A stretch of 64,000 nucleotides of DNA from Haloarcula pelagica (GTDB lineage Archaea > Halobacteriota > Halobacteria > Halobacteriales > Haloarculaceae), in contig NZ_CP126161.1 in NCBI RefSeq assembly GCF_030127105.1, positions 1,550,001 through 1,614,000 of the forward strand, given 5' to 3'. Positions within the stretch are counted from its first letter, which is position 1, and each line of letters starts with the position of its first letter. Shown here piece by piece: positions 8,705-49,837 of the stretch. Under the pieces are notes generated by a model. It saw nothing but the letters and a program-made list of their open reading frames with translations, was not told the origin of the DNA and did no database searches. The translations under genes and the position numbers were made by a program.

Positions 8705-9160
8705 ATGTCGAAGAGAAACCTACCACAGGCAGCTGAACCGACCCATCCACTCTCGCGCTTAGCATTCACGAAGCGAGTGGCAAAGCGTGCCCAGTACGAA
8801 GCCTTCGAGTTCACAATCGTCCCCGAGGGCGTTCGTGTTCGCAACGGGAGTCATGCGAACCCCGAGGAGCACGAGTATCTCGTGCGTGTTGCAGGCGGAA
8901 TTCCAGCAACGTGTACCTGTCCTGCGGACGCACGGTTCGATGGGGCGTGTAAACACCGGGTAGCGGTGGTGATCAGAGCGCCAATCCTAGACGCGGCAAA
9001 CAGGCAGGTGGTCGCGGATGGTGGTGTTGAGACATCAGCGGGTCGGGCGAATCACCAGCAAGGGGAGTCGGTCGACGAAGACGACGGGTGTGAGACGTGT
9101 CTTGAGGAGTTTCCGTGCTGGGAGTGTGTTCGGACAGGAGTGCGGGCGTTGCCCGAATGA
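8705..9160 (+). CDS. SWIM zinc-finger protein, copy 1
   Basis: A SWIM motif CxC-x(n)-CxH is visible (CTCPADARFDGACKHRV) in the middle of a 151-residue protein. A C-terminal pair of CxxC motifs (CETC, CWEC) probably binds a second zinc. SWIM domains occur in proteins that bind DNA or other proteins, including recombination and transposition partners. The conserved N-terminal half (SRLAFTKRVAKRAQYEAFEF) is nearly identical to copy 2 at 12.2 kb. A start at 8687 would add MCPDQS and place the start codon inside the upstream hairpin. A T-rich terminator follows. Confidence 0.8.
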   Translation: MSKRNLPQAAEPTHPLSRLAFTKRVAKRAQYEAFEFTIVPEGVRVRNGSHANPEEHEYLVRVAGGIPATCTCPADARFDGACKHRVAVVIRAPILDAANRQVVADGGVETSAGRANHQQGESVDEDDGCETCLEEFPCWECVRTGVRALPE

Positions 9161-9193
9161 AAACCAGTCGCGAATACAGCACTGTTCAGAGTC

Positions 9194-9212
9194 CTCAGAG
9201 TGACTTTTTTAT
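9194..9212 (+). terminator. T-tract terminator after SWIM gene 1
   Basis: CCTCAGAGTGAC followed by six T residues (9205-9210) lies 34 bases past the SWIM stop. The equivalent position after copy 2 has the same CCTCAGAGTGGC plus T run. T tracts of this kind terminate archaeal transcription. Confidence 0.5.
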
Positions 9213-9220
9213 AATATAAC

Positions 9221-9305
9221 GCCAGCCCCTCCCCAGCCGTCGTCCTCACTGCGTTCGGACGCCCCTCACGCGTTCTCGGCGCAGTGCGCCGATTCATCGC
9301 GCGCC
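9221..9305. repeat. Conserved 85-bp tail after SWIM gene 1
   Basis: This noncoding stretch (CGCCAGCCCCTCCCCAGCCG at its start) recurs with few changes at 12728-12813 after SWIM gene 2. The duplication between the two loci therefore extends beyond the coding region and terminator. Confidence 0.65.
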
Positions 9306-9343
9306 ACTTTCCGAAGACCAATCAGTACCAGTCTAGCTACCGT

Positions 9344-10726
9344 TCAGGAGCTGCTATCGGTGGTGAGTAGCTCGGACAACTCAACGAGACGAACGTCATC
9401 GCGACCGTCAGCAACGTCTGTAAGATCCTCAGTGTACCCCGAGCGACTGAATAAGACATACAGCGTCGTCCCGTCTGCTGGCTCCTTTGACCACCGTACG
9501 TTCGATGCTGTTCGTTCGAGGTTGGCAAGGATCCCTTCGCTTACCGGTTTCGAGGTGAATTTACACTCCCCAGCAACGAGTCCCTCGTCTGTGAGACCGA
9601 GGACATCCAATTCATGCTCTTTGAACCACCACTGCCCGACGTCCTGGAACTGTCGGTCAATGAGCGCTGGGAGCGCTTGCTGACAGAGGCGTTCGAACAG
9701 GGGACTCACGTAATCAGCCAGTTCCGGTGCCACGAGTTCTTCGTAGGCGTCATCACCGAGTATACGGAGCTGATCTTGGTTCCCATAGACGAATCGGAAC
9801 CAGAATCGGAACAGTGGTGCTCCAATGCGATACCGACCACGCTTCGAGGTTGTCGGTGATTCCGTTACGGGGATGTGGCGTTCGACGAGACGAAGCCGGC
9901 GAAGCTTCTGGAGGTACGTACTGAGTGAGCCCGACTCTATGCCTGCCATGCCGGCAATCTCGTTTGGGGTGCGACGCCCGTGAGCAAGCGCACGGAGAAT
10001 GCTGAAGTACGTATTTGGCTGTCGGAGTTCGGTACGGAGCAAAAACTCGGGCTCAGAATAGAGGAGGCCGCGCTCTGATAGAATCGACTGTTGGACGTTC
10101 GTTCCTAACGGTTGGTTGGGATCGATAGTCTGGAGGTAGTATGGAGTACCCCCATAGATTGACCACGCCGTGATTGTGGTCTCGGGGTCGTACTCCGGGA
10201 AAAACTGTTGTGCGTCGGCTACGGCGAGAGGTTTGAGGTCAATCGTCGCTGTCCGGCGACCGTACAGCGGGGCACTTCCCGAGAGGACCTTCTCTTCCAT
10301 CACGCTAATCGAGGACCCGACGAGTACGAGTGTCATTCCCGTCTCCTGTAGTTTCATATCCCAAACGCGTTGTATCCGAGACGGTAGCGACTGGTCCTCC
10401 TCGATGAGAAACGGGAATTCGTCGATGACGACGACGGCGTCCTCTTCGCCCAGTGTTTCGAGGAGTACCTCCCAGTCACGGCGAACGTTGCGAAGCGATG
10501 GGAACTGTGCAGTAGCGGTCTCGACGAATTGCTCTCGTTGGTTTGGTGCCGTGGACTCGACTGCTTGGTAATAGACGGCGTCGTCCCGATCAGCGATGGA
10601 CTGGCGGACGAGTTCGCTTTTGCCAAGGCGACGGCGGCCATAGATGACGACGAATTCGGCTGACTCGGACGCATAGCACTCGGCGAGTTGATCGAGTTCA
10701 GCGTCCCGATCAACGAATTGGTCCAT
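9344..10726 (-). CDS. ATPase with C-terminal DUF234 nuclease-like domain
   Basis: The 460-residue protein has a Walker A motif at residues 30-37 (GRRRLGKS) and Walker B VVVIDEF with Asp102/Glu103. An AAA/STAND-like ATPase core is followed by a winged helix (about 250-300, LRALAHGRRTPNEIAGMAGI) and a C-terminal DUF234 PD-(D/E)xK-like domain with DVLGL...AGECKF near residues 385-400. This is the common archaeal ATPase/DUF234 architecture. Such genes multiply in archaeal genomes and their role is not settled; defence or DNA-processing roles are proposed. It stands alone, convergent with SWIM gene 1. Confidence 0.85.
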   Translation of the reverse strand: MDQFVDRDAELDQLAECYASESAEFVVIYGRRRLGKSELVRQSIADRDDAVYYQAVESTAPNQREQFVETATAQFPSLRNVRRDWEVLLETLGEEDAVVVIDEFPFLIEEDQSLPSRIQRVWDMKLQETGMTLVLVGSSISVMEEKVLSGSAPLYGRRTATIDLKPLAVADAQQFFPEYDPETTITAWSIYGGTPYYLQTIDPNQPLGTNVQQSILSERGLLYSEPEFLLRTELRQPNTYFSILRALAHGRRTPNEIAGMAGIESGSLSTYLQKLRRLRLVERHIPVTESPTTSKRGRYRIGAPLFRFWFRFVYGNQDQLRILGDDAYEELVAPELADYVSPLFERLCQQALPALIDRQFQDVGQWWFKEHELDVLGLTDEGLVAGECKFTSKPVSEGILANLERTASNVRWSKEPADGTTLYVLFSRSGYTEDLTDVADGRDDVRLVELSELLTTDSSS

Positions 10727-39355: not shown

Positions 39356-39498
39356 CCGGGAGTTATCCCCCGTTTCGGTCCCGTCCGGCGGGGCAAAGAG
39401 TATCGGTACCACGCTCACCTCCCCGGCTCGTGTAGGTCTACGTGTATGCCTCAGTTCGACCGGCCATACGGACGCGGCCCGATGTGCGGGTGGTACCG

Positions 39499-40533
39499 AT
39501 GAGTGGCGCGAGCGACGACCGGTTGCCGGGCGTCCCGGACGCGGGCGCCGCCGACCTCGACGCGATGGTCGACGACGAGGCGGCCGATCCCAGGGCGGAA
39601 CTGTCGAAGACCGACCACGACACGGACCTCGGGATAGCGATGGCCGAGGACGCCAAGCGCGTCTCCCGGGGTGAACTGTCGGCCGAGGAGTACTGGGAGC
39701 GATACGACGAGGCCGCCGAACGCGAGTTCGGCGACACCTATCGCGAGACCCCCAACCCATCGATCGAGAGCGGCGACCAGACGATCGCCGACGAGACCGC
39801 GGACTCGCTGGGCTGTTCGGTCGGCTCGATGGACTCGGTCGCCTGCGAGCTCTCCGCCGACGGGGACGGGGCCGACGCGACCGGCGACGGGGCGGACGGC
39901 GACGAGCGCTGGGGGATGGTCATCGACCTCCAGAAGTGCGTCGGCTGTGACTCCTGTACGGTCGCCTGCAAGGCCGAGAACCGGACGCCGCCGGGCGTCT
40001 CTTACAACGTCGTGATGGAGGAGGAACACGGGGAGTTCCCGGAGGTCACGCGGACGAACGTCCCTCGGCCCTGTATGCAGTGCGAGAACCCGCCGTGCGT
40101 GCAGGTCTGCCCCGTCAGCGCGACCTACAAGATGGACAACGGCGTGGTCAACGTCGACTACGACCGCTGTATCGGCTGTCGGTACTGCATGATCGCGTGC
40201 CCGTACGGGGCGCGCTATTTCGACTTCGGCGAGAACTACGACGACGAGGTCGACGAGGCCGGCGAGGTGACCAGCCCCGAGTACGGCGTCGACCGCGGGA
40301 AGCGCGAGGGCGACGAGTCGCCGGTCGGCAACGTCCGCAAGTGTAGCTTCTGCACGCACCGCCTGGAGCGCGGCGAGGAGCCGGCTTGCGTCGAGACCTG
40401 CGTCGGCGACGCCCGGAACATGGGTGACCTCGACGACCCCGACAGCGAGGTCTCCGAGATGGCCGACTCCTCACGGGCGTTCCAGCTGAAAGAGAGCGAG
40501 GGGACCGACCCCAACGTCTACTACCTCAAGTGA
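39499..40533 (+). CDS. 4Fe-4S ferredoxin subunit of a CISM molybdoenzyme, with long N-terminal extension
   Basis: The protein has 344 residues. The last 210 are a DmsB/PsrB/TtrB-like four-cluster ferredoxin: CVGCDSCTVACKAE, CMQCENPPCVQVCP, CIGCRYCMIACPYGARY and CSFCTHRLERGEEPACVETCVGD. The first 135 residues are an acidic, low-complexity extension (from MSGASDDRLPG to DGDERW) absent in bacterial homologues. It carries electrons between the membrane subunit and the molybdopterin subunit. It is the first gene of the operon; the ATG at 39499 is preferred over one upstream. Confidence 0.85.
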   Translation: MSGASDDRLPGVPDAGAADLDAMVDDEAADPRAELSKTDHDTDLGIAMAEDAKRVSRGELSAEEYWERYDEAAEREFGDTYRETPNPSIESGDQTIADETADSLGCSVGSMDSVACELSADGDGADATGDGADGDERWGMVIDLQKCVGCDSCTVACKAENRTPPGVSYNVVMEEEHGEFPEVTRTNVPRPCMQCENPPCVQVCPVSATYKMDNGVVNVDYDRCIGCRYCMIACPYGARYFDFGENYDDEVDEAGEVTSPEYGVDRGKREGDESPVGNVRKCSFCTHRLERGEEPACVETCVGDARNMGDLDDPDSEVSEMADSSRAFQLKESEGTDPNVYYLK

Positions 40534-40535
40534 CC

Positions 40536-41804
40536 ATGGCGACCGAACACTCGCGGTTCGAGTTCGACCCCGGGTTCGTCAGCGACCGCCTGCGCGTCGC
40601 CTGGTACGCCGTCCTCGGCGCGCTCCTGCTCGTCGGCGGGTACGCGACGTGGCTGCGGATCACGGAGGGGATGGCGAGCACCAACCTGACGAGCACGACC
40701 CCCTGGGGCGCCTGGGTCGCCTTCTACATCTACTTCGTCGGCCTCTCGGCGGGGGCGTTCCTCGTCAGCACGCTCGCGAACGTCTTCGGCGTCGAGGCGA
40801 TGCACCGGATCGACCGCGACGCGCTGTTCGCAGCGATCGTCAGTATGGCCGTCGCGCTGCTGTTCGTCTGGACCGATCTCGGCCGAATGGACCGGATGTA
40901 TCACCCGTTCGTCTGGCGGCAGTTCACCTCCGCGCTCTCCTGGGAGGTCCACGCGTACGTCGCCTACATCGGCGTGCTCGTGACCGAGCTGTACTTCTCG
41001 ATGCGCTACGACCTCGCCCGCGTCGCCGAGCGCGGGTCGGGACTGCGCGCCCGACTCGCTGCCCTCCTGACGCTGGGTCGCCGGGCGACGACCGAGGCCT
41101 CCCGGACCACCGACCGAACCTGGCTCACGCGAGCCGGGATCGTCGGCATCCCGCTGGCCATCTTCATGGTCCACGGCGGGACGGGCGTCCTCTTCGCCGT
41201 CTCGAAGGCCCGCCCGTACTGGAACAGCGGGCTATTCCCGGTGATCTTCATCGTCTCGGCGGTGCTCTCCGGGACGGCGCTGGTGATGCTGTTGTACGTT
41301 CTCCGGACGAAGCTGTTCGACGACGAGCCCGTCGACCGGGACCTGCTCGACCAGCTGGCGAAGCTACTGGCCGCGTTCGTCGTCGTCGACGTGGCGCTGA
41401 CCGCCATCGAGGCGCTGATCGCGATCGTCAGTTTCCACCCCCACGTCGTCGAGACCTGGCAGATCATCGCGTTCGGCGAGATGTCGTGGTCGTTCTGGTG
41501 GTTCATGGTCGGGTTCGGGTGGGTGTTCCCGCTCGTCATGCTCTCGAAGCGGGAGTGGCGACGCACGCCGTGGCTGATGGCGCTGGCGGGGCTCAGCGTC
41601 GTGATCGGCATCGTCGCCGTGCGGTTCAACATCGTCGTTCCGCCGCAGATCCGCCCCGTCATGGAGGGGCTCCCGCACGGCTCGTACTTCCCATCGGCCG
41701 TGGAGTGGGCGACCAGCGCCGGGATGATCGCGGTCGGACTGCTCCTGTACACGATCGGCGCGGAACTGCTGCCGCTGACGCCGCTCGACGGAGGTGACCA
41801 CTGA
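40536..41804 (+). CDS. NrfD/PsrC-type membrane subunit
   Basis: The 422-residue integral membrane protein has about nine helices of the NrfD family: LLVGGYATWLRI, WGAWVAFYIYFVGLSAGAFL, VAYIGVLVTELYFSMRY and more to the end. This subunit exchanges electrons with quinones in polysulfide, thiosulfate, tetrathionate and related reductases. The ATG at 40536 follows the ferredoxin stop by two bases. The ATG of the large subunit overlaps its stop, so all are one transcript. Confidence 0.9.
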   Translation: MATEHSRFEFDPGFVSDRLRVAWYAVLGALLLVGGYATWLRITEGMASTNLTSTTPWGAWVAFYIYFVGLSAGAFLVSTLANVFGVEAMHRIDRDALFAAIVSMAVALLFVWTDLGRMDRMYHPFVWRQFTSALSWEVHAYVAYIGVLVTELYFSMRYDLARVAERGSGLRARLAALLTLGRRATTEASRTTDRTWLTRAGIVGIPLAIFMVHGGTGVLFAVSKARPYWNSGLFPVIFIVSAVLSGTALVMLLYVLRTKLFDDEPVDRDLLDQLAKLLAAFVVVDVALTAIEALIAIVSFHPHVVETWQIIAFGEMSWSFWWFMVGFGWVFPLVMLSKREWRRTPWLMALAGLSVVIGIVAVRFNIVVPPQIRPVMEGLPHGSYFPSAVEWATSAGMIAVGLLLYTIGAELLPLTPLDGGDH

Positions 41805-44800
41805 TGTCAACCGACGACACCACCGACGCAGACGCCGGAGGGACCGAAGACGAGGGGCCGTCGCTCACGCGACGCGACCTCGTGAAGGCGGTCGGAGCCG
41901 TCGGCGCCATCGGCGCCGCCAGCGCCGCGACCGTCAACGTCGACACCGACGACCTCTGGACCGACGACACCGAACACTACGTCGGCGACGACTACGGCGA
42001 GTACGGCGCGAGCGACGTGATCCACACGACCTGCGGGCAGTGCAACACGTTCTGCCCGATCAAAGTCCGGCTGGCCGACGACAGCGGGACTGGCGAGTAC
42101 AGCTCGCTCGTCCGCAAGCTGGCCGGCAACCCGTACTCGTTCCTGAACACCCAGCCGTTCTCGCAGGTGCCCTACGACAGCGACCCCGAAGACGTGGCCA
42201 CGGGCGACGTGGCGGGGAGCGGTGCCGTGGACGCCGACCGGTGGTCGCTGTCGGGCGGCCGGATCTGCCTGAAGGGCCAGGCCGGCATCCAGACGGCGTT
42301 CGACAGCTACCGAGTGCGCAAGCCGATGAAACGCGTCGGTCCCCGCGGCTCCGGGGAGTGGAAGACTATCTCCTGGGAACAGGCGATCGAAGAGATCGTC
42401 GAGGGTGACGACGACCTGGGCCACCCCGGGTTGCGCGCTCTGTGGGGCTACGCGCCCGAGGACGAGGTGATGGACGACTGGGAAGCCGTCCAGTCCGGTG
42501 AGCTGGAGAAGTCGGCCTTCGACGAGAAGTACGAGGACGTCTTAATCGACACCGACCACCCCGACATGGGGCCGAAAGCCAACCAGATCGTCGACGTGGG
42601 CGGGTTCCGGCGCAACTTCATCCGGACTCGCCTGTGGCACCAGGGGCTGGGGTCGATCAACAGCGTCCACCACGCGGGGACCTGCGGCTTCTCCAGCGTC
42701 ATGGGGAACGTCCGTTCGCACGCGGCCCAGAAGAAGCGCCAGTACCCCGACGTGGAGAACTGCGAGTACCTGCTGGTGTGGGGGACCAACCCCATGGTCG
42801 CCAACAAGGGACCGACCTGGCTCGCGCCGAAGCTGACCAGCGCCATCGAGGACGGGATGCGGATGGATGTGGTCGACCCGCGGCTGTCGAAGACCGCCGA
42901 GAAGGCGGACACCTGGGTCCCGGTCGAACCTGGCGCGGACGGCGCGCTCGCGCTCGGGATGGCCCGCTGGATCCTCGAACACGACCGCCACGACGTCGAG
43001 TACCTCCGCAACCCCGCCGAGAGTGCCGCCGAGAGCGACGGCGAGCCAACCTGGAGCGACGCGACCCACCTCGTCCTCGTCGACGAGGAGGCGGGTCCCA
43101 AGGCCCGCGCCGCCGACCTCGGGCTCGTCCCGGCGGACCACGAACTGGCTGACGACTTCGTCGCGGTCGACGCATCGACCGGCGAACCGCGGCCGGCCAG
43201 CGAGGTCGAGACCGGTGTCCTCGACGTGTCGCTGACCGTCGACGGAACCGCCGTCGAGAGTGTCTGGAGCCTGTACCGCGACCGGGTGTTCGAGCACACC
43301 GTCGAGGAGTACGCCGAGATGTCCGGCGTCTCGGCCGACCGGATCGCCGAGGTCGCCGACGAGTTCACCAGCCACGGAAAGCGAGCGGCGATCATGGCCT
43401 ACCGCGGCCCGGCGAAACACACCAACGGGTTCTACAACACCCGGGCCATCGCGACGCTGCAGCACCTCATCGGTAACTACGACTGGAAAGGGGGCCAGAT
43501 CACGCCCTACGCCGGGTACAGTACGATGTCCGGCCGCTACGAGCTCGAACAGGTCCCCGACGGCCACTCGCCGTGGGGGATCCCGTTGCTGCGCGGCGGG
43601 GTCAACTACGAGGACACCACGCTGTTCGAACGCGACGGCGGCTACCCGGCGAAGCGGCCGTGGTTCCCCGTCGCGCCACCTCAGGCCACCCAGGAACTGT
43701 ACGGCAGCGCCGCCGACGAGTACCCCTACGGCATCGAGGCGCTGTTCATCCGGCCGTACTCGAACAACCACGTGATGGCCGTCGCCGGCGGCGACCAGAT
43801 CCCCGACATCCTCGGCGACCCCGACACTATCCCGCTGGTCGTCGCCTCCGACACGGTGATCGGCGAGACGAGCAAGCACGCCGACTACATCCTGCCGGAG
43901 CCGACCTACCTCGAACGGTGGGAGAACTTCGGCACGTACCCGAACAAGCGGCTGGCCGACGAGAAGATCAGCCAGCCCGCGGTCGAGGTGGTTCCCGACG
44001 CGCGGCCGTTCGAGGAGGTCCTGATCGACCTCTGGACGGAACTGGACCTCCCCGGCGTCGGCGAGGACGCGATCCCCGACGCGGACGGGGATCTGTGGCC
44101 GCTCGAGCGGGCCGAGGACTTCTACCTGAAGCTCGCGGCGAACATGGCCTACGCCCGCGAGCCCGTCCCCGATGCGAGCGAGGACGAGCAGCGGGTCTTC
44201 CGCGAGAGCCACGAGCAGGGGCTCGGCGACTCGTTCGACCTCGACCGCTGGAAGCGGGTCGTCAGCGACGAGGAGTGGGCGAAGGTCGTCACCGTGCTCA
44301 ACCGCGGCGGCCGCTTCGAGGAGCCCGTCGACGACTACGCCGACCGGTTCGCCGAGCACGGCCACGAGTACGACTACGCCGAGCGCTTCGACGATAGCAA
44401 CGCCTACGACGGCGACCAGATGCGCTACAGACTCAGCTCGCGCGTGGACTTCTACAGCGAGGTCGTGCCGAACGGGAAACACTCCTACACCGGCGAGCGG
44501 TTCGACCCGCTCCCGCGGGTCGACGACGTCGAACACTACGACGGCGGCGTCCAGGCGCCGGTCACCGACGACGGCGACCCCGAGCGCCCCCTGCGGCTGA
44601 TCAACTGGAAGCCCCGGACCCAGGGGATGCACCGCACCACGAACAGCCCGTGGCTCCGGGAGACTAGGCCGCAGAACCCGCTGTGGATCAACCCGCGCGA
44701 CGCCGAGAAGCGCGGCATCGAGAACGGCGACGAGATCGCCATCGACGCCGGCCGACGCACCGCGGAAGGGGTCGCGATGGTCACGAACGGCATCCGCCCC

Positions 44801-45085
44801 GGCGTCGTCGGTGCCATGTGGGGCTGGGGTCGGTCCGGAGACGGTGCGGTCGAAGAGACTATCGACGGCGAGACCCGCGGCCTGGTTGAGGAAGACGGCC
44901 ACACGCCCTACCAGTTCGACGAGCCGATGACCGAAGAGGCCGGGCTGGCGAAGGGCCGCGACGCCGGGTTCGCGATCAACCACCTCCAGCCGCTCGACGA
45001 AGACCTCGGCGACACCGGCCTCTCGGACCTCGTCGGCGGGAGCAACGCCCAGTACGACGCCTTCGTCGAGGTCGAGCGGAAGTGA
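41804..45085 (+). CDS. Molybdopterin oxidoreductase catalytic subunit (CISM; Psr/Phs/Ttr-like)
   Basis: This 1093-residue protein has a twin-arginine signal (LTRRDLVKAVG, Arg23-Arg24), predicting export across the membrane. The [4Fe-4S] motif is Cys77-x2-Cys80-x3-Cys84 with Cys155. A likely molybdenum-ligand Cys294 lies in HAGTCGFSSVMGN. Other molybdopterin-fold landmarks are YLLVWGTNPMVANKGPT and the C-terminal NPLWINPRDAEKRGIENGDE. Size and motif spacing fit polysulfide/thiosulfate/tetrathionate-type reductases; arsenate-type relatives cannot be excluded by eye. The sulfur context favours a sulfur oxyanion or polysulfide. Confidence 0.87.
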   Translation: MSTDDTTDADAGGTEDEGPSLTRRDLVKAVGAVGAIGAASAATVNVDTDDLWTDDTEHYVGDDYGEYGASDVIHTTCGQCNTFCPIKVRLADDSGTGEYSSLVRKLAGNPYSFLNTQPFSQVPYDSDPEDVATGDVAGSGAVDADRWSLSGGRICLKGQAGIQTAFDSYRVRKPMKRVGPRGSGEWKTISWEQAIEEIVEGDDDLGHPGLRALWGYAPEDEVMDDWEAVQSGELEKSAFDEKYEDVLIDTDHPDMGPKANQIVDVGGFRRNFIRTRLWHQGLGSINSVHHAGTCGFSSVMGNVRSHAAQKKRQYPDVENCEYLLVWGTNPMVANKGPTWLAPKLTSAIEDGMRMDVVDPRLSKTAEKADTWVPVEPGADGALALGMARWILEHDRHDVEYLRNPAESAAESDGEPTWSDATHLVLVDEEAGPKARAADLGLVPADHELADDFVAVDASTGEPRPASEVETGVLDVSLTVDGTAVESVWSLYRDRVFEHTVEEYAEMSGVSADRIAEVADEFTSHGKRAAIMAYRGPAKHTNGFYNTRAIATLQHLIGNYDWKGGQITPYAGYSTMSGRYELEQVPDGHSPWGIPLLRGGVNYEDTTLFERDGGYPAKRPWFPVAPPQATQELYGSAADEYPYGIEALFIRPYSNNHVMAVAGGDQIPDILGDPDTIPLVVASDTVIGETSKHADYILPEPTYLERWENFGTYPNKRLADEKISQPAVEVVPDARPFEEVLIDLWTELDLPGVGEDAIPDADGDLWPLERAEDFYLKLAANMAYAREPVPDASEDEQRVFRESHEQGLGDSFDLDRWKRVVSDEEWAKVVTVLNRGGRFEEPVDDYADRFAEHGHEYDYAERFDDSNAYDGDQMRYRLSSRVDFYSEVVPNGKHSYTGERFDPLPRVDDVEHYDGGVQAPVTDDGDPERPLRLINWKPRTQGMHRTTNSPWLRETRPQNPLWINPRDAEKRGIENGDEIAIDAGRRTAEGVAMVTNGIRPGVVGAMWGWGRSGDGAVEETIDGETRGLVEEDGHTPYQFDEPMTEEAGLAKGRDAGFAINHLQPLDEDLGDTGLSDLVGGSNAQYDAFVEVERK

Positions 45086-45090
45086 TCCCG

Positions 45091-45822
45091 ATGGACGACG
45101 CCACCACCACGGCCGTGGGCGGTGAATCCGGCGGCGACGCCGACGCCGCCCGTGCGAGAGCGGCGGTGTACGGGCTGCTCGCCGCGGCGTTCGACGGCGA
45201 CCACGAGACGCTCGCGGCCGCGCTCGGCGACGGGACCCTGGCCGACCTCGTCACCCGGTTCCTGGGTGACGCGGACGGCGATGCGTTCGACCGCCCCGAC
45301 CTCGACACCGAGGGGCTCCGGGTCGGCTACGACAACCTGTTCGTCGTCCCCGGTCCGCACTACGTCCCCCCGTTCGCGTCGGCCTGGGCTGACGACCCCA
45401 GCGAGGACTTCGAGTCCGACTCGCCGTACCACGACGCCGGGGCGGCGGGCGAACTGCTGGGCGACCCCGCTGCCGCGGCCGCGCGGTCCCATGCGGCCGT
45501 CGGCTTCGAACCCGAGCGCGGCGACGCCATTCCCGACCACCTCGCCGCCGAACTGGAGTTCATGCGCGCGCTCTGCGAGCGGGAGGCCACCCTGCTCGCT
45601 GACCGTAGCGACGCCACCGACGAGCTCGCAGCGGTCCGCGAGCACCAGCGGGAGACGGTCGGCCGCCTCGGCTGGCTCGACGACTTTCACGAGACCGTCG
45701 AGGCCGAAGACGCCGCCGAGGGTGTCTTCGCGGCACTCGCCCGACTCGCACGGACCTTCGTCGCCTGGGACGCACGGAGCGGAGTCGCTGCTCCCGACAG
45801 TGGCACGGTCTCGCCCCAGTGA
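45091..45822 (+). CDS. TorD/DmsD-like chaperone
   Basis: The 243-residue helical, acidic protein matches the TorD family: ARARAAVYGLLAAAFDGDHE, then LRVGYDNLFVVPGPHYVPPFAS, HLAAELEFMRALCEREATLL and LARTFVAWDA. TorD-type proteins bind the twin-arginine signal of molybdoenzymes and proofread cofactor loading. It follows the catalytic subunit with a five-base gap, supporting a complete export-ready operon. Confidence 0.85.
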   Translation: MDDATTTAVGGESGGDADAARARAAVYGLLAAAFDGDHETLAAALGDGTLADLVTRFLGDADGDAFDRPDLDTEGLRVGYDNLFVVPGPHYVPPFASAWADDPSEDFESDSPYHDAGAAGELLGDPAAAAARSHAAVGFEPERGDAIPDHLAAELEFMRALCEREATLLADRSDATDELAAVREHQRETVGRLGWLDDFHETVEAEDAAEGVFAALARLARTFVAWDARSGVAAPDSGTVSPQ

Positions 45823-46121
45823 GCGACCCCAAAACACAAACGAGACCGGACGGTAGCAGCAGCCGAGAGATGACCGAGGCGGACGGCACTGCCGAGTCGA
45901 CGCGATCGCACTGGTCGTTGCTGGGGATCGGCGGCGCGCTGAGCCTCTGCTGTCTCGTCGCGGCCCCGGCGTCGACCGGCGCGGCCGGCGCCGTCGCTGG
46001 CGGCAGTACTACCGCCGTCCTCGGTGGGAACCTGGTCCAGATTCTCGTGACGGCCGTGACCGTCGGGCTCCTGGCCGGCTTCGTCCGGCTTCGGACCGGC
46101 GGCGGAAGCTGCGAGGCCTGA
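45819..46121 (+). CDS. Small membrane protein with CC pair, end of the CISM operon
   Basis: This 100-residue product starts with GTG overlapping the TorD stop (an ATG at 45870 is an alternative). It has a polar start and two hydrophobic helices (IGGALSLCCLVAAPASTGAAG and LVQILVTAVTVGLLAGFVRL) with a Cys pair at the first helix and a C-terminal Cys. No family is recognised; the Cys arrangement recalls small metal or thiol-handling membrane proteins. Confidence 0.5.
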   Translation: MSDPKTQTRPDGSSSREMTEADGTAESTRSHWSLLGIGGALSLCCLVAAPASTGAAGAVAGGSTTAVLGGNLVQILVTAVTVGLLAGFVRLRTGGGSCEA

Positions 46122-46125
46122 TCCG

Positions 46126-46629
46126 TCAGCGGCCGCACGCCTCACAGCGCCGTCGCTGATAGTAGAGCAGTCCGCCGAAGGCGGCGACGCTCACGGCCCC
46201 GAACGCCGGTCGCAGCGGGTCGAAGTACGTCATCAGCGCCGAGGAGCTGAACAGCGCCAGCAGCACGGCGTTGCATATCGGGCAACCGAAAGCCAGGAAC
46301 CCGCCGACGATACCGCCGGCGGCGTAGCGGTCTCCGATCGGGTCGTCGGTCAGCGACCGCTGGTAGACGAAGCCGGCGGCGAACGCCGCCGTAGCGACTA
46401 GGAAGAGGTAGTCCGCCGGGGTACGCTCCACCATTCGAACGTACAGGGGGTTCGGGATCAGTCCGGTCACGACGCCGAACAGCAGGAGAGTCCCGACGCC
46501 GACGCCGGCGCTCCTGACGAATCGGGAATACGGGAGAGCCGTCACAGCCCAACCTCCCGTCGTCGAGTGCCGTTCGTTCGGTTGTCCGATGCATGCCACA
46601 TCTCGACCATCTGTCGTCGGTTGTTCCAT
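46126..46629 (-). CDS. Four-helix membrane protein with CPIC and CEAC motifs
   Basis: The 167-residue membrane protein has four or more helices. Thiol-disulfide-type motifs appear in FLAFGCPICNAVLL and at the C-terminus RRRCEACGR. The ATG at 46629 precedes the first hydrophobic part; the frame upstream mirrors the neighbouring gene. It lies directly downstream of another CxxC membrane protein and a DsbA-like gene. Together they suggest a membrane-bound thiol relay, analogous to but unlike DsbB or VKOR in sequence. Confidence 0.6.
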   Translation of the reverse strand: MEQPTTDGRDVACIGQPNERHSTTGGWAVTALPYSRFVRSAGVGVGTLLLFGVVTGLIPNPLYVRMVERTPADYLFLVATAAFAAGFVYQRSLTDDPIGDRYAAGGIVGGFLAFGCPICNAVLLALFSSSALMTYFDPLRPAFGAVSVAAFGGLLYYQRRRCEACGR

Positions 46630-46636
46630 CGCATGG

Positions 46637-47182
46637 TTACGTCGGGTCGATCGAGCACGTCCGCGGATCACCCGCGCGCCCGAGGAAAATGAGGAGCAGG
46701 ACGATACCGCCGACGCGGAGAAGGTTGCCGTCGTACGGTAGGGCCGCCATCGCACCGACGAAGCCCAACGCTCCGAGCACGCCCGCACCGCAGCTCGCAC
46801 AGCCGGCGGCGACCATTCCGGGCAGGACGCCCACGATGGTTGATGCACCTCGGCGACGCGCACGGCCGACCAGCGCCAGCGCGTTGGTCGTCGCGATACC
46901 GGTCAGGACCGCGTATCCAGTGACCAGAGCGAGACCGACCGCCCCAGTGCTCAGGTACATTTCCCGAGTGAGTGCGCTGACCGCGTAGACGACGTCGCCC
47001 GGGTCGTTCGCGAGGATCTGGAGCGAGAACTGAGGGAACGAACTCAAGACCAGGACGACGTACGTGACGGCCGTCCCGGCGGCGGTCAGCAGCAGCCGTC
47101 GATCAGACGTGAGCGGGTAAACGAGCGCTCCGCGGAGGCTACGAGTCCAGTCGCGACTCGCAATGGTCCGTCTCACGCTCAC
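46637..47182 (-). CDS. Membrane protein with GCASCGAG motif
   Basis: The 181-residue protein has four or five helices (AGTAVTYVVLVLSSF, SLQILANDPGDV loop, VALVTGYAVLTGI) and VAAGCASCGAGVLGALGF inside a membrane segment. The 4-base overlap with the DsbA-like gene shows co-translation. The Cys pair inside a helix suits electron or disulfide transfer through the membrane, a role held elsewhere by DsbD/ScsB/VKOR proteins. Family unknown to me. Confidence 0.6.
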   Translation of the reverse strand: MSVRRTIASRDWTRSLRGALVYPLTSDRRLLLTAAGTAVTYVVLVLSSFPQFSLQILANDPGDVVYAVSALTREMYLSTGAVGLALVTGYAVLTGIATTNALALVGRARRRGASTIVGVLPGMVAAGCASCGAGVLGALGFVGAMAALPYDGNLLRVGGIVLLLIFLGRAGDPRTCSIDPT

Positions 47183-47916
47183 GATTCCATCACCTGGTCG
47201 ATGGCGTCGGCGAAGTTCTCGTAGGGGTGGGCCCCGACGAGCCTCCCGGCAGCCCCGGACTCACGATTGTAGATAACGAAACCCGGTGTGCCCTGAATCC
47301 TCGCCTCGCGGGCTACGTCGAGGTTTGGATCCATGCTCTCACGAATCGAGTCCCCTCGTTCCTCGCGGCAGGTATCGACCGAGGATACGTCCACACCATC
47401 TACCCGCTCGGTGACACTGGTAAACGCCTCCTCGTCGGCCCAATCCGTCCCTGAATCGGGCTGTTCGTCGAACGCCGCCGCGTGCCAGTTCCAGAACGCG
47501 GCGGGGTTGCTGTCGGCGACCTGCGACCATACACAGCGCCCCCAAACTGCCGCTGGCATCGAGTACTGTCCGATGTTCGGATATGAGAGCGCCACCAGGC
47601 GGGCGTCGCCGGTGTCGAGGTAGTTGCGGCCGATATCGGGGAACGTCTCCGTCTCGAACTTCTTGCAGAACGGACACAGATAGTCCGTCCAGTAGTAGAT
47701 GTCCACCGCAGCGTCGCGCTCGCCGGCGATCGGTCGCCCGGCGAGTTCGACGCCGAAGTCCGTCGTCGCAGTGCTGCCGTGGGAGGTATCCGGAACGTAG
47801 CGCTGCTCACTCGGCTCAGGCTGTGACGCGACGTACGCGACACCACCCCCGAGCGCAAGCACCCCGCCGCCAGCGAGAAGGGCGCGTCGACGAGTGATAT
47901 TGCTTGTGAGATCCAT
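47179..47916 (-). CDS. DsbA-like exported thiol oxidoreductase
   Basis: The 245-residue protein has a twin-arginine-type signal (ITRRRALLAGGGVLALGGGVA). A DsbA fold follows with active site YLCPFCKKFETETF and a cis-Pro segment IQGTPGFVIYNRESG. Two further cysteines (RCVWSQ and DTCREERG) may form a structural disulfide. It would act outside the membrane. The start at 47916 is preferred because the signal begins there. CCCAATACC (47922-47930) lies just ahead. It heads an operon with two CxxC membrane proteins. Confidence 0.85.
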   Translation of the reverse strand: MDLTSNITRRRALLAGGGVLALGGGVAYVASQPEPSEQRYVPDTSHGSTATTDFGVELAGRPIAGERDAAVDIYYWTDYLCPFCKKFETETFPDIGRNYLDTGDARLVALSYPNIGQYSMPAAVWGRCVWSQVADSNPAAFWNWHAAAFDEQPDSGTDWADEEAFTSVTERVDGVDVSSVDTCREERGDSIRESMDPNLDVAREARIQGTPGFVIYNRESGAAGRLVGAHPYENFADAIDQVMES

Positions 47917-47971: not shown

Positions 47972-48271
47972 TTAGAAATTACCGGCGTATGCCGCGTTTT
48001 CGACTGTCTCAATTATCGAATGCAGATCGTATGAGCCATCATTCCGTACCACGACAACGAGCCCGATCGTCTCCTCGACCGGTACAGCGATGGTGACCAG
48101 TGTATCGTATACGCGAACGGTCGCGTGCAGCGGCTCTCCGTGGTATTCCTCGTAGACTGCAGTGCCGATTGCCTCCAACTGAATGTGTTCTAGAATCGAC
48201 CGAATATCGGACGCAGTGTACTGTGAGGATGCCGCCTCGTCCCGGTACAGGACATCGTACTCGCCACCCAC
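47972..48271 (-). CDS. DUF7522-like small haloarchaeal protein
   Basis: The 99-residue acidic protein has the order YDVLYRDE, a helix with DIRSILEHIQLEAIG, then strands LHATVRVYDTLVTIAVPVEET and GLVVVVRNDGS. This is the pattern of small haloarchaeal proteins annotated DUF7522. Function unknown. It lies between the DsbA-like and thioredoxin genes in the same orientation. Confidence 0.55.
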   Translation of the reverse strand: MGGEYDVLYRDEAASSQYTASDIRSILEHIQLEAIGTAVYEEYHGEPLHATVRVYDTLVTIAVPVEETIGLVVVVRNDGSYDLHSIIETVENAAYAGNF

Positions 48272-48329: not shown

Positions 48330-48743
48330 TTACACGTGCTTTTCTATCACAGAGCGAAGCTGCGCTTCGTCCTGCATTCCGACAAGGCGTTCGGCAGGCT
48401 GACCGTTGGCGAATAAGACGAGCGTCGGCAACCCCTGGACACTGTACTCGGCGGCAAGTTGCTGGTTCGCGTCAATATCGATCTTCGCCACAGCCGCACC
48501 CGTCTCGGCGGCGATCGTTTCGACGACCGGTTCAAGCATCTGGCATGGTCCGCACCAGTCAGCGTAAAAGTCGGCTAGCACGACATCGTGTTCGGCGACA
48601 GTTTCGGTCAGCTCGGCGCCGCCGTCGATATGGATCGGCTCAGAAGGACTCTGCGAGTCGGACTCCCCAGCACCGCCCGTTCCAGCCTGATTTCGAAGCT
48701 CCGCCAATTTCTGTCGTCGGATCTCCTCGATCTCTTCAGCCAT
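48330..48743 (-). CDS. Thioredoxin with N-terminal extension
   Basis: The 137-residue protein has WCGPCQ in FYADWCGPCQMLEPV and cis-Pro VQGLPTLVLFANGQP. A charged N-terminal extension of about 45 residues (EEIEEIRRQKLAELRNQ) is followed by a flexible segment. The ATG at 48743 is chosen over one 11 codons upstream. It closely resembles trxA at 20352 and sits next to a remnant of the same HTH regulator. A whole trx-regulator block was therefore probably duplicated. CACAATAC lies 29 to 36 bases upstream. Confidence 0.88.
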   Translation of the reverse strand: MAEEIEEIRRQKLAELRNQAGTGGAGESDSQSPSEPIHIDGGAELTETVAEHDVVLADFYADWCGPCQMLEPVVETIAAETGAAVAKIDIDANQQLAAEYSVQGLPTLVLFANGQPAERLVGMQDEAQLRSVIEKHV

Positions 48744-49078: not shown

Positions 49079-49837
49079 TCAACAATCTCCTTCGGAAGAG
49101 CGTTCCTCATTTGTCAGAGCCTGTTCTGCACCCGGGTAGCCGACGACGCTGCCGGTCGCTTGTTTGTGTTCCCTGACAGAGTAGGGGTCGAGCGAATCTG
49201 TGGCAGAAATACCACCGCTGGAATCTGATACGGCGACCACATCGGCGCCTATCTCGTAGACTAGTTTGGCCCCTATCCAGCCGGCATTTCCATACCCCTG
49301 TACAGCGACAGAGGCCCCGCTGAGGTCCTTGTCGAGATACTCGAACGCCTCGCGTGCGGCGATGACCGTCAACCGGCCGGTCGCTTCGACGCGACCTTCG
49401 CTCCCGCCACTAGATATATCTTTCCCGGTGATGACACCTGGTTCAGTCGTATTCTCGAGGGTCTCGTAGGTATCTCTGATCCAGTTCATCTCACGCTGGC
49501 CCGTGTTGACGTCGGGAGCGGGGATATCACGGTCAGACCCGATGAAGGGGCGCAGTTCGACGGCGAATGCACGGGTGACCCGCTCGAGTTCCGACTCGGA
49601 GTACTCACTCGGGTCGGTGATGATACCGCCTTTGCCGCCGCCGAGCGGGATATCACTGGTGGCAGTTTTATAAACCATCCACCCTGACAGCGCTTTGACC
49701 TCATCACGGGTAACTCCGGGGTGGTAGCGGATACCGCCCTTGTAAGGGCCACGGTCACCGTTGAACTGTGACCGGTAGGCACGGAACACCTCGGTCGACC
49801 CATCGTCTATTTCGACAGCCAGATTCATCTCCACCAC
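49079..49837 (-). pseudogene. Glu/Leu/Phe/Val-type dehydrogenase, truncated at both ends
   Basis: The 252-residue frame carries the catalytic core of a glutamate dehydrogenase ([43 protein letters not shown], then the NAD domain [18 protein letters not shown]). Normal enzymes have about 410-430 residues. Here the first 30 or so residues and the last 150 (beginning about QALTNEE) are missing. A start can only be a GTG, in the sequence [13 protein letters not shown] typical of residue 35-50. Probably inactive relic. Confidence 0.75.

Follow-up and report, generated by a model that had tools for sequence, protein, structure and literature searches.

The window analysed here, a stretch of 64,000 nucleotides from Haloarcula pelagica, carries on its minus strand a cluster of five genes encoding, in the order of transcription, a thioredoxin, a conserved protein without assigned family, an exported DsbA-like protein with a CPFC motif, and two membrane proteins, mem1 (GCASC) and mem2 (CPIC...CEAC) (Table 1). 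The initial annotation had described the last three as overlapping or adjoining genes with the motifs CPFC, GCASCGAG and CPIC/CEAC, and all were found on the minus strand within the interval that it gave. The DsbA-like gene and mem1 overlap by 4 bp, and mem1 and mem2 are separated by approximately 90 bp if the GTG start of mem2 at 46545 is correct; this start codon is uncertain, because the mem2 frame is open to 46863. A gene for a small protein with an intramembrane CC pair (hereafter the CC protein) follows the operon of a TtrA-like molybdoenzyme. A sulfur-trafficking cluster lies in the same window at approximately 25-37 kb and comprises Sulf_transp, rhodanese plus metallo-beta-lactamase, and TusA-, DsrE- and SQR-like genes.

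Table 1. Positions in the window of the genes and motifs discussed in the text
Feature	Position	Strand	Remarks
DsbA-like exported protein	47179-47916	minus	245 aa, twin-arginine N-terminus
DsbA-like CPFC active site	47665-47676	minus	
DsbA-like Thr-cisPro	47284-47289	minus	
mem1	46637-47182	minus	4-helix membrane protein, 181 aa
mem1 intramembrane GCASCGAG	46781-46804	minus	
mem1 C-terminal Cys176 codon	46655-46657	minus	
mem2	46126-46545	minus	139 aa, mem1 paralogue by profile comparison
mem2 CPIC	46273-46284	minus	In predicted broken helix
mem2 C-terminal CEAC	46135-46146	minus	
Thioredoxin	48330-48743	minus	Lacks an export signal; could donate electrons on the cytosolic side; TIGR01068 5e-31, above cut-off
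Conserved gene without assigned family, after thioredoxin and before DsbA	47972-48271	minus	99 aa; relatives approximately 132 aa
CC protein	45819-46121	plus	Small protein of two helices, with a CC pair inside the membrane and a Cys at the C-terminus; convergent with mem2
Operon of TtrA-like molybdoenzyme with FeS, NrfD and TorD-type subunits	39442-45822		Convergent

Two genes of this region appear to be incomplete. The conserved gene between thioredoxin and DsbA is approximately 33 N-terminal residues short of its relatives (132 aa at locus L014), which could reflect truncation or a wrongly assigned start; neither this copy nor the full-length L014 copy has a Pfam match. The glutamate dehydrogenase gene at 49079-49837 encodes 252 aa that match only the first 105 of the 241 positions of the C-terminal domain, and it is probably truncated.

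Judged by its sequence, the exported protein has a DsbA-like thioredoxin fold. It exceeded the curated Pfam cut-offs for Thioredoxin_4 (PF13462; 7.5e-16, 59.2 bits versus a cut-off of 23.2) and DSBA (PF01323; 3.3e-7, 30.7 bits versus 25.6), and both the CxxC motif and the cis-proline are present. Its nearest named relatives are BdbD, which is the closest sequence in the PDB (2.6e-18), and the Rcas_1661 family of thioredoxin-like lipoproteins (NF041057), against which it scored 82 bits, under the cut-off of 190. BdbD is an oxidase known to work with BdbC, a homologue of DsbB, whereas the DsbA-like protein described here pairs with mem1. The CPFC motif is kept in 55 of 67 relatives. Threonine or serine precedes the cis-proline in nearly all of them, threonine in most, and threonine at this place is also carried by some oxidative DsbAs. 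It is reported to be common in isomerases, the residue in disulfide generators being nearly always valine (PMC5909903).

In haloarchaea the DsbA-like protein and mem1 are paired almost one-to-one. The co-occurrence search proposed in the initial annotation was carried out on 68 mem1 loci, with gene calls based on codon usage and genes named by eye unless a family search is cited. Of these, 65 have a DsbA-like gene at most two genes away from mem1. In 55 it immediately precedes mem1 on the same strand, in seven it is the immediate neighbour but divergent, and in three it is two genes off; the three remaining loci lack such a gene. The overlap with mem1 is exactly 4 bp for 42 of the 55 preceding genes. 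Members of the mem1 family are present in 135 of 292 complete Halobacteria genomes and in 53 of 76 genera, and all 16 sampled members of the window's genus carry the gene; the window's genome contains a second, diverged DsbA-mem1 pair (C1, 629.6 kb). Scanning of genome contigs with a single sequence returned Halolamina as the only match, and the profile matched 13 of 197 genomes drawn from the phylum, all within the window's own order or closer. The distance matrices of mem1 and DsbA correlated at 0.95, a value obtained without species-tree control and not counted as evidence. No description of this partnership was found in the literature library that was searched.

The cysteines, on whose conservation the initial annotation had made its proposal depend, are nearly invariant. 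Most mem1 proteins have exactly three, of which Cys128 and Cys131 occur in all 68 proteins and Cys176 in 67, and the four of mem2 (C88, C91, C134 and C137) are invariant among 36 proteins. Together with the gene pairing, this greatly exceeds what chance would give. Of the 68 loci, 37 have a mem2 gene in the vicinity of mem1, and both genes are shared by 72 genomes (odds ratio 10.8; p 1e-16 without correction for phylogeny). Profiles were compared using hhalign against a null of 55 reversed-alignment comparisons (maximum 24.6) and 35 comparisons with unrelated membrane families (maximum 23.6). With a score of 37.2 (E 3e-5) in this comparison, mem1 and mem2 are distant homologues, i.e. paralogues. 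Neither protein reached the cut-off of a Pfam or NCBIfam family, neither has a related sequence in the PDB, and Foldseek searches of their models, which are of moderate (mem1) and low (mem2) confidence, gave no PDB match below E 1. The AlphaFold model of mem1 (mean pLDDT 73.7) shows helix 3 broken at CASCG with low local confidence, and that of mem2 is poor (mean pLDDT only 61). Four hydrophobic stretches were found in mem1, with arginine clusters at both the N- and the C-terminus and in the loop that leads into helix 3. By the positive-inside rule this distribution suggests that both termini face the cytosol, with the CxxC motif in helix 3 and Cys176 on the cytosolic side.

To our knowledge, exported thioredoxin-fold proteins have as their known membrane partners DsbB, VKOR or a member of the DsbD/CcdA group. 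The initial annotation saw no resemblance of mem1 and mem2 to any of these, and the profile comparisons bear this out: scores were 13-17 with DsbB (PF02600), 10-19 with VKOR (PF07884) and 11-19 with haloarchaeal members of CcdA/DsbD_TM (PF02683), all inside the null. On the last comparison, the idea that mem1 and mem2 are half-CcdA repeats was rejected. Like mem1, DsbB and VKOR are four-helix membrane partners of a DsbA with a similar logic of gene pairing, and mem1 could in principle be a third DsbA re-oxidase, with quinone or some other acceptor taking up the electrons of DsbA. The closeness of BdbD to the DsbA-like protein fits such a role, as does the finding that neither DsbB nor VKOR was detectable in 65 of the 135 mem1-bearing genomes. 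We nevertheless regard it as improbable. In place of the second extracellular cysteine pair of DsbB and VKOR, mem1 has one C-terminal cysteine, predicted to be cytosolic, next to its CxxC; DsbB and mem1 coexist in the window's genome and in 14 of 15 sampled congeners; and mem1 clusters with thioredoxin and CcdA-like genes. The idea that mem1 replaces DsbB or VKOR was dropped, the anticorrelation between them not being significant (p 0.08).

Of the known families compared, the mercury transporter MerT was the one for which a probable relation emerged. Scores with MerT, whose profile was shallow (5-7 sequences), as were some others, were 37.0 for mem2, 35.7 for the CC protein, 30.6 for DX and 26.2 for mem1. 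DX is a haloarchaeal 4-helix family found in 44 of 116 genomes, with an intramembrane CC where mem1 and mem2 have CxxC, and it scored 31.7 with mem1 and 25.2 with mem2. The CC protein, whose CC pair is invariant and which occurs near mem1 in 16 loci, showed no relation to mem1 when the two were compared directly (score 13.6). In a single alignment of mem2 with MerT, the regions of the intramembrane cysteines coincide, as do those of the C-terminal cysteines. In searches with PF02411 (MerT), three of 36 mem2 proteins matched below the cut-off of 32.9 bits (best E 0.003), there was no match in the window, and none of 197 genomes contained a match over the cut-off. Kinship of mem1 and mem2 to MerT is therefore likely but remote, and its support is weaker than that of the homology between mem1 and mem2. 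A link to a known transporter family, which the initial annotation had named as an argument against a new relay, is thus likely at the level of remote homology, with no family cut-off reached.

DX at locus L157 (G048 C6, 1090-1692; relatives L162-L191) bridges mem1 and MerT; it is flanked there by a DUF3179 gene on one side and, further downstream, by a second small protein with CC on the other. Two archaeal genes (L155, 677-1758; L156, 635-1755) seem to be fusions of a MerT-like hairpin and a MerP-like domain for metal binding. Their neighbours encode an ArsR-like regulator and a CopZ-like protein rich in cysteine, both named by eye.

MerT transports Hg(II) and not electrons, together with its exported partner MerP, and the main rival to an electron relay is import in the manner of this pair. 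The exported thioredoxin-fold protein would catch a thiol-bound cargo, either sulfane sulfur derived from persulfide or thiosulfate or a soft metal, for example Cu(I), Hg(II) or As(III), and hand it via the CxxC of mem1 or mem2 to the cytosolic cysteines for use or detoxification. Besides the network of profile similarities connecting mem1, mem2, the CC protein and DX with MerT (scores 26-37), the order of motifs is that of MerT, i.e. an intramembrane cysteine pair, a hairpin and a C-terminal or cytosolic cysteine, and MerT binds Hg and passes it on through four cysteines (PMC10433974). Sulfur genes in 22 of the 68 loci, an ars-type cluster in Halolamina and the presence of Sco are also consistent with import. 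There are also differences: mem1 and mem2 have CxxC instead of CC, four helices, and no score over the family cut-off, their partner outside the cell belongs to the DsbA-type redox proteins, with CPFC, and is not a MerP-type binding domain, and no MerP or mercuric reductase (MerA) was seen beside the DsbA-mem1 pair. The contexts of the pair are moreover varied (sulfur, copper oxidase assembly, arsenic, housekeeping), which fits a general redox service better than a single cargo. We consider import unlikely on balance, though it deserves more weight than re-oxidation of DsbA.

Neighbouring genes were also informative about a possible client. The initial annotation had suggested that the system serves the adjacent molybdoenzyme, whose convergent operon also accompanies the pair in a second genus (L072). 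This link turned out to be local. A TtrA-type operon is found near DsbA-mem1 in only two of the 68 loci, compared with 22 for sulfur-trafficking genes (TusA, DsrE, SQR, persulfide dioxygenase-type, Sulf_transp) and nine for Sco, TlpA or CcdA-like genes, whereas the mem1 family itself is widespread in the class. Dedication of the module to this enzyme is very improbable.

An exported thioredoxin-fold protein, a membrane CxxC, a cytosolic cysteine and a cytosolic thioredoxin together have the layout of a transmembrane thiol relay, and the DsbA-mem1 pair probably passes electrons, or thiol-bound cargo, across the membrane. We tentatively propose, with a confidence just short of even, that the DsbA-like protein and mem1 form a dedicated two-component transmembrane thiol relay working in the reductive direction, to which mem2 is often added as a paralogous second carrier. 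Of the relay suggested in the initial annotation, the linked thiol module with its conserved cysteines stands; its novelty is qualified by the paralogy of the two membrane proteins and by their weak similarity to MerT, above the controls.

Reduction, from cytosolic thioredoxin through mem1 or mem2 to the exported DsbA, seems the more likely direction because of the genes that accompany the pair. In 12 loci DsbA-mem1 is preceded on its own strand by a thioredoxin gene, and seven of these have the same five-gene order with the conserved unknown gene in the same position; in six loci the gene directly after mem1 is CcdA-like; and Sco, TlpA-like and CcdA-like genes occur together with the pair in three. 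The genes downstream of mem1 scored 30-35 against PF02683 members in profile comparisons; their original label 'CcdA', given by eye, failed in Pfam and NCBIfam, and only 'CcdA-like' was kept. The threonine before the cis-proline points the same way, as does the genome of the window, in which DsbB is present and no DsbD_TM protein was detected by a PF02683 search, a negative that does not prove the absence of CcdA because the same search missed divergent haloarchaeal CcdA-like proteins.

We infer the electron transfer, its direction and its clients as follows. Reduced cytosolic thioredoxin would deliver electrons to the cytosol-facing C-terminal cysteines (Cys176 of mem1, the CEAC pair of mem2), from which they would move to the CxxC pair within the broken transmembrane helix and on to the CPFC disulfide of the DsbA-like protein. 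The latter would then reduce or isomerise exported thiols, candidate clients being copper-site and sulfur-handling proteins. Such a relay resembles that of CcdA/DsbD with TlpA, ResA or DsbC in its membrane cysteine pair, cytosolic thioredoxin and exported thioredoxin-fold partner, but it would be built on a MerT-like hairpin, with both cysteines of the CxxC in one helix of proteins unrelated to CcdA in sequence. CcdA has one cysteine in each of two helices. Several points argue against reduction. The nearest solved relative of the DsbA-like protein is an oxidase, BdbD; with its CPFC motif the protein looks DsbA-like and not DsbC-like; the CcdA-like proteins beside mem1 could mean that mem1 has a different role; and the nearest membrane relative, MerT, carries Hg(II) instead of electrons.

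In a broader reading, which we find possible but more doubtful than the relay itself, these proteins would form an additional class of thiol carriers spanning the membrane, built on a MerT-type hairpin whose CC is replaced by CxxC, that is co-inherited with a DsbA-like protein across Halobacteria and in which a fold for metal-ion thiol exchange would have become a relay for electrons or sulfane sulfur. MerT-type metal thiol exchange would then be linked to thiol redox relays. About half of haloarchaeal genomes carry mem1, which as a conserved alternative partner could explain how archaea without DsbB, VKOR or DsbD/CcdA keep their exported thiols in order and offers a testable handle on the maturation of archaeal copper oxidases and sulfur proteins.

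Three further loci are of note. In Halolamina pelagica (L024, 1443-7056) DsbA-mem1 directly follows an arsenic-type cluster of an ArsR-like regulator, an LMW phosphatase-type ArsC, a methyltransferase and an ACR3-like transporter, and a P-type ATPase adjoins. At L017, a membrane protein of the DUF7546 family (8716-9390) that contains CVSC adjoins both the DsbA-mem1 pair and a COX15-like/UbiA fusion of the cytochrome oxidase assembly type. A single 200-kb contig carries two copies of the thioredoxin-DsbA-mem1-mem2 cluster (L014 and L015; G015 C3, approximately 17 kb and 168 kb), and the thioredoxin and mem2 frames of the second copy are broken up.
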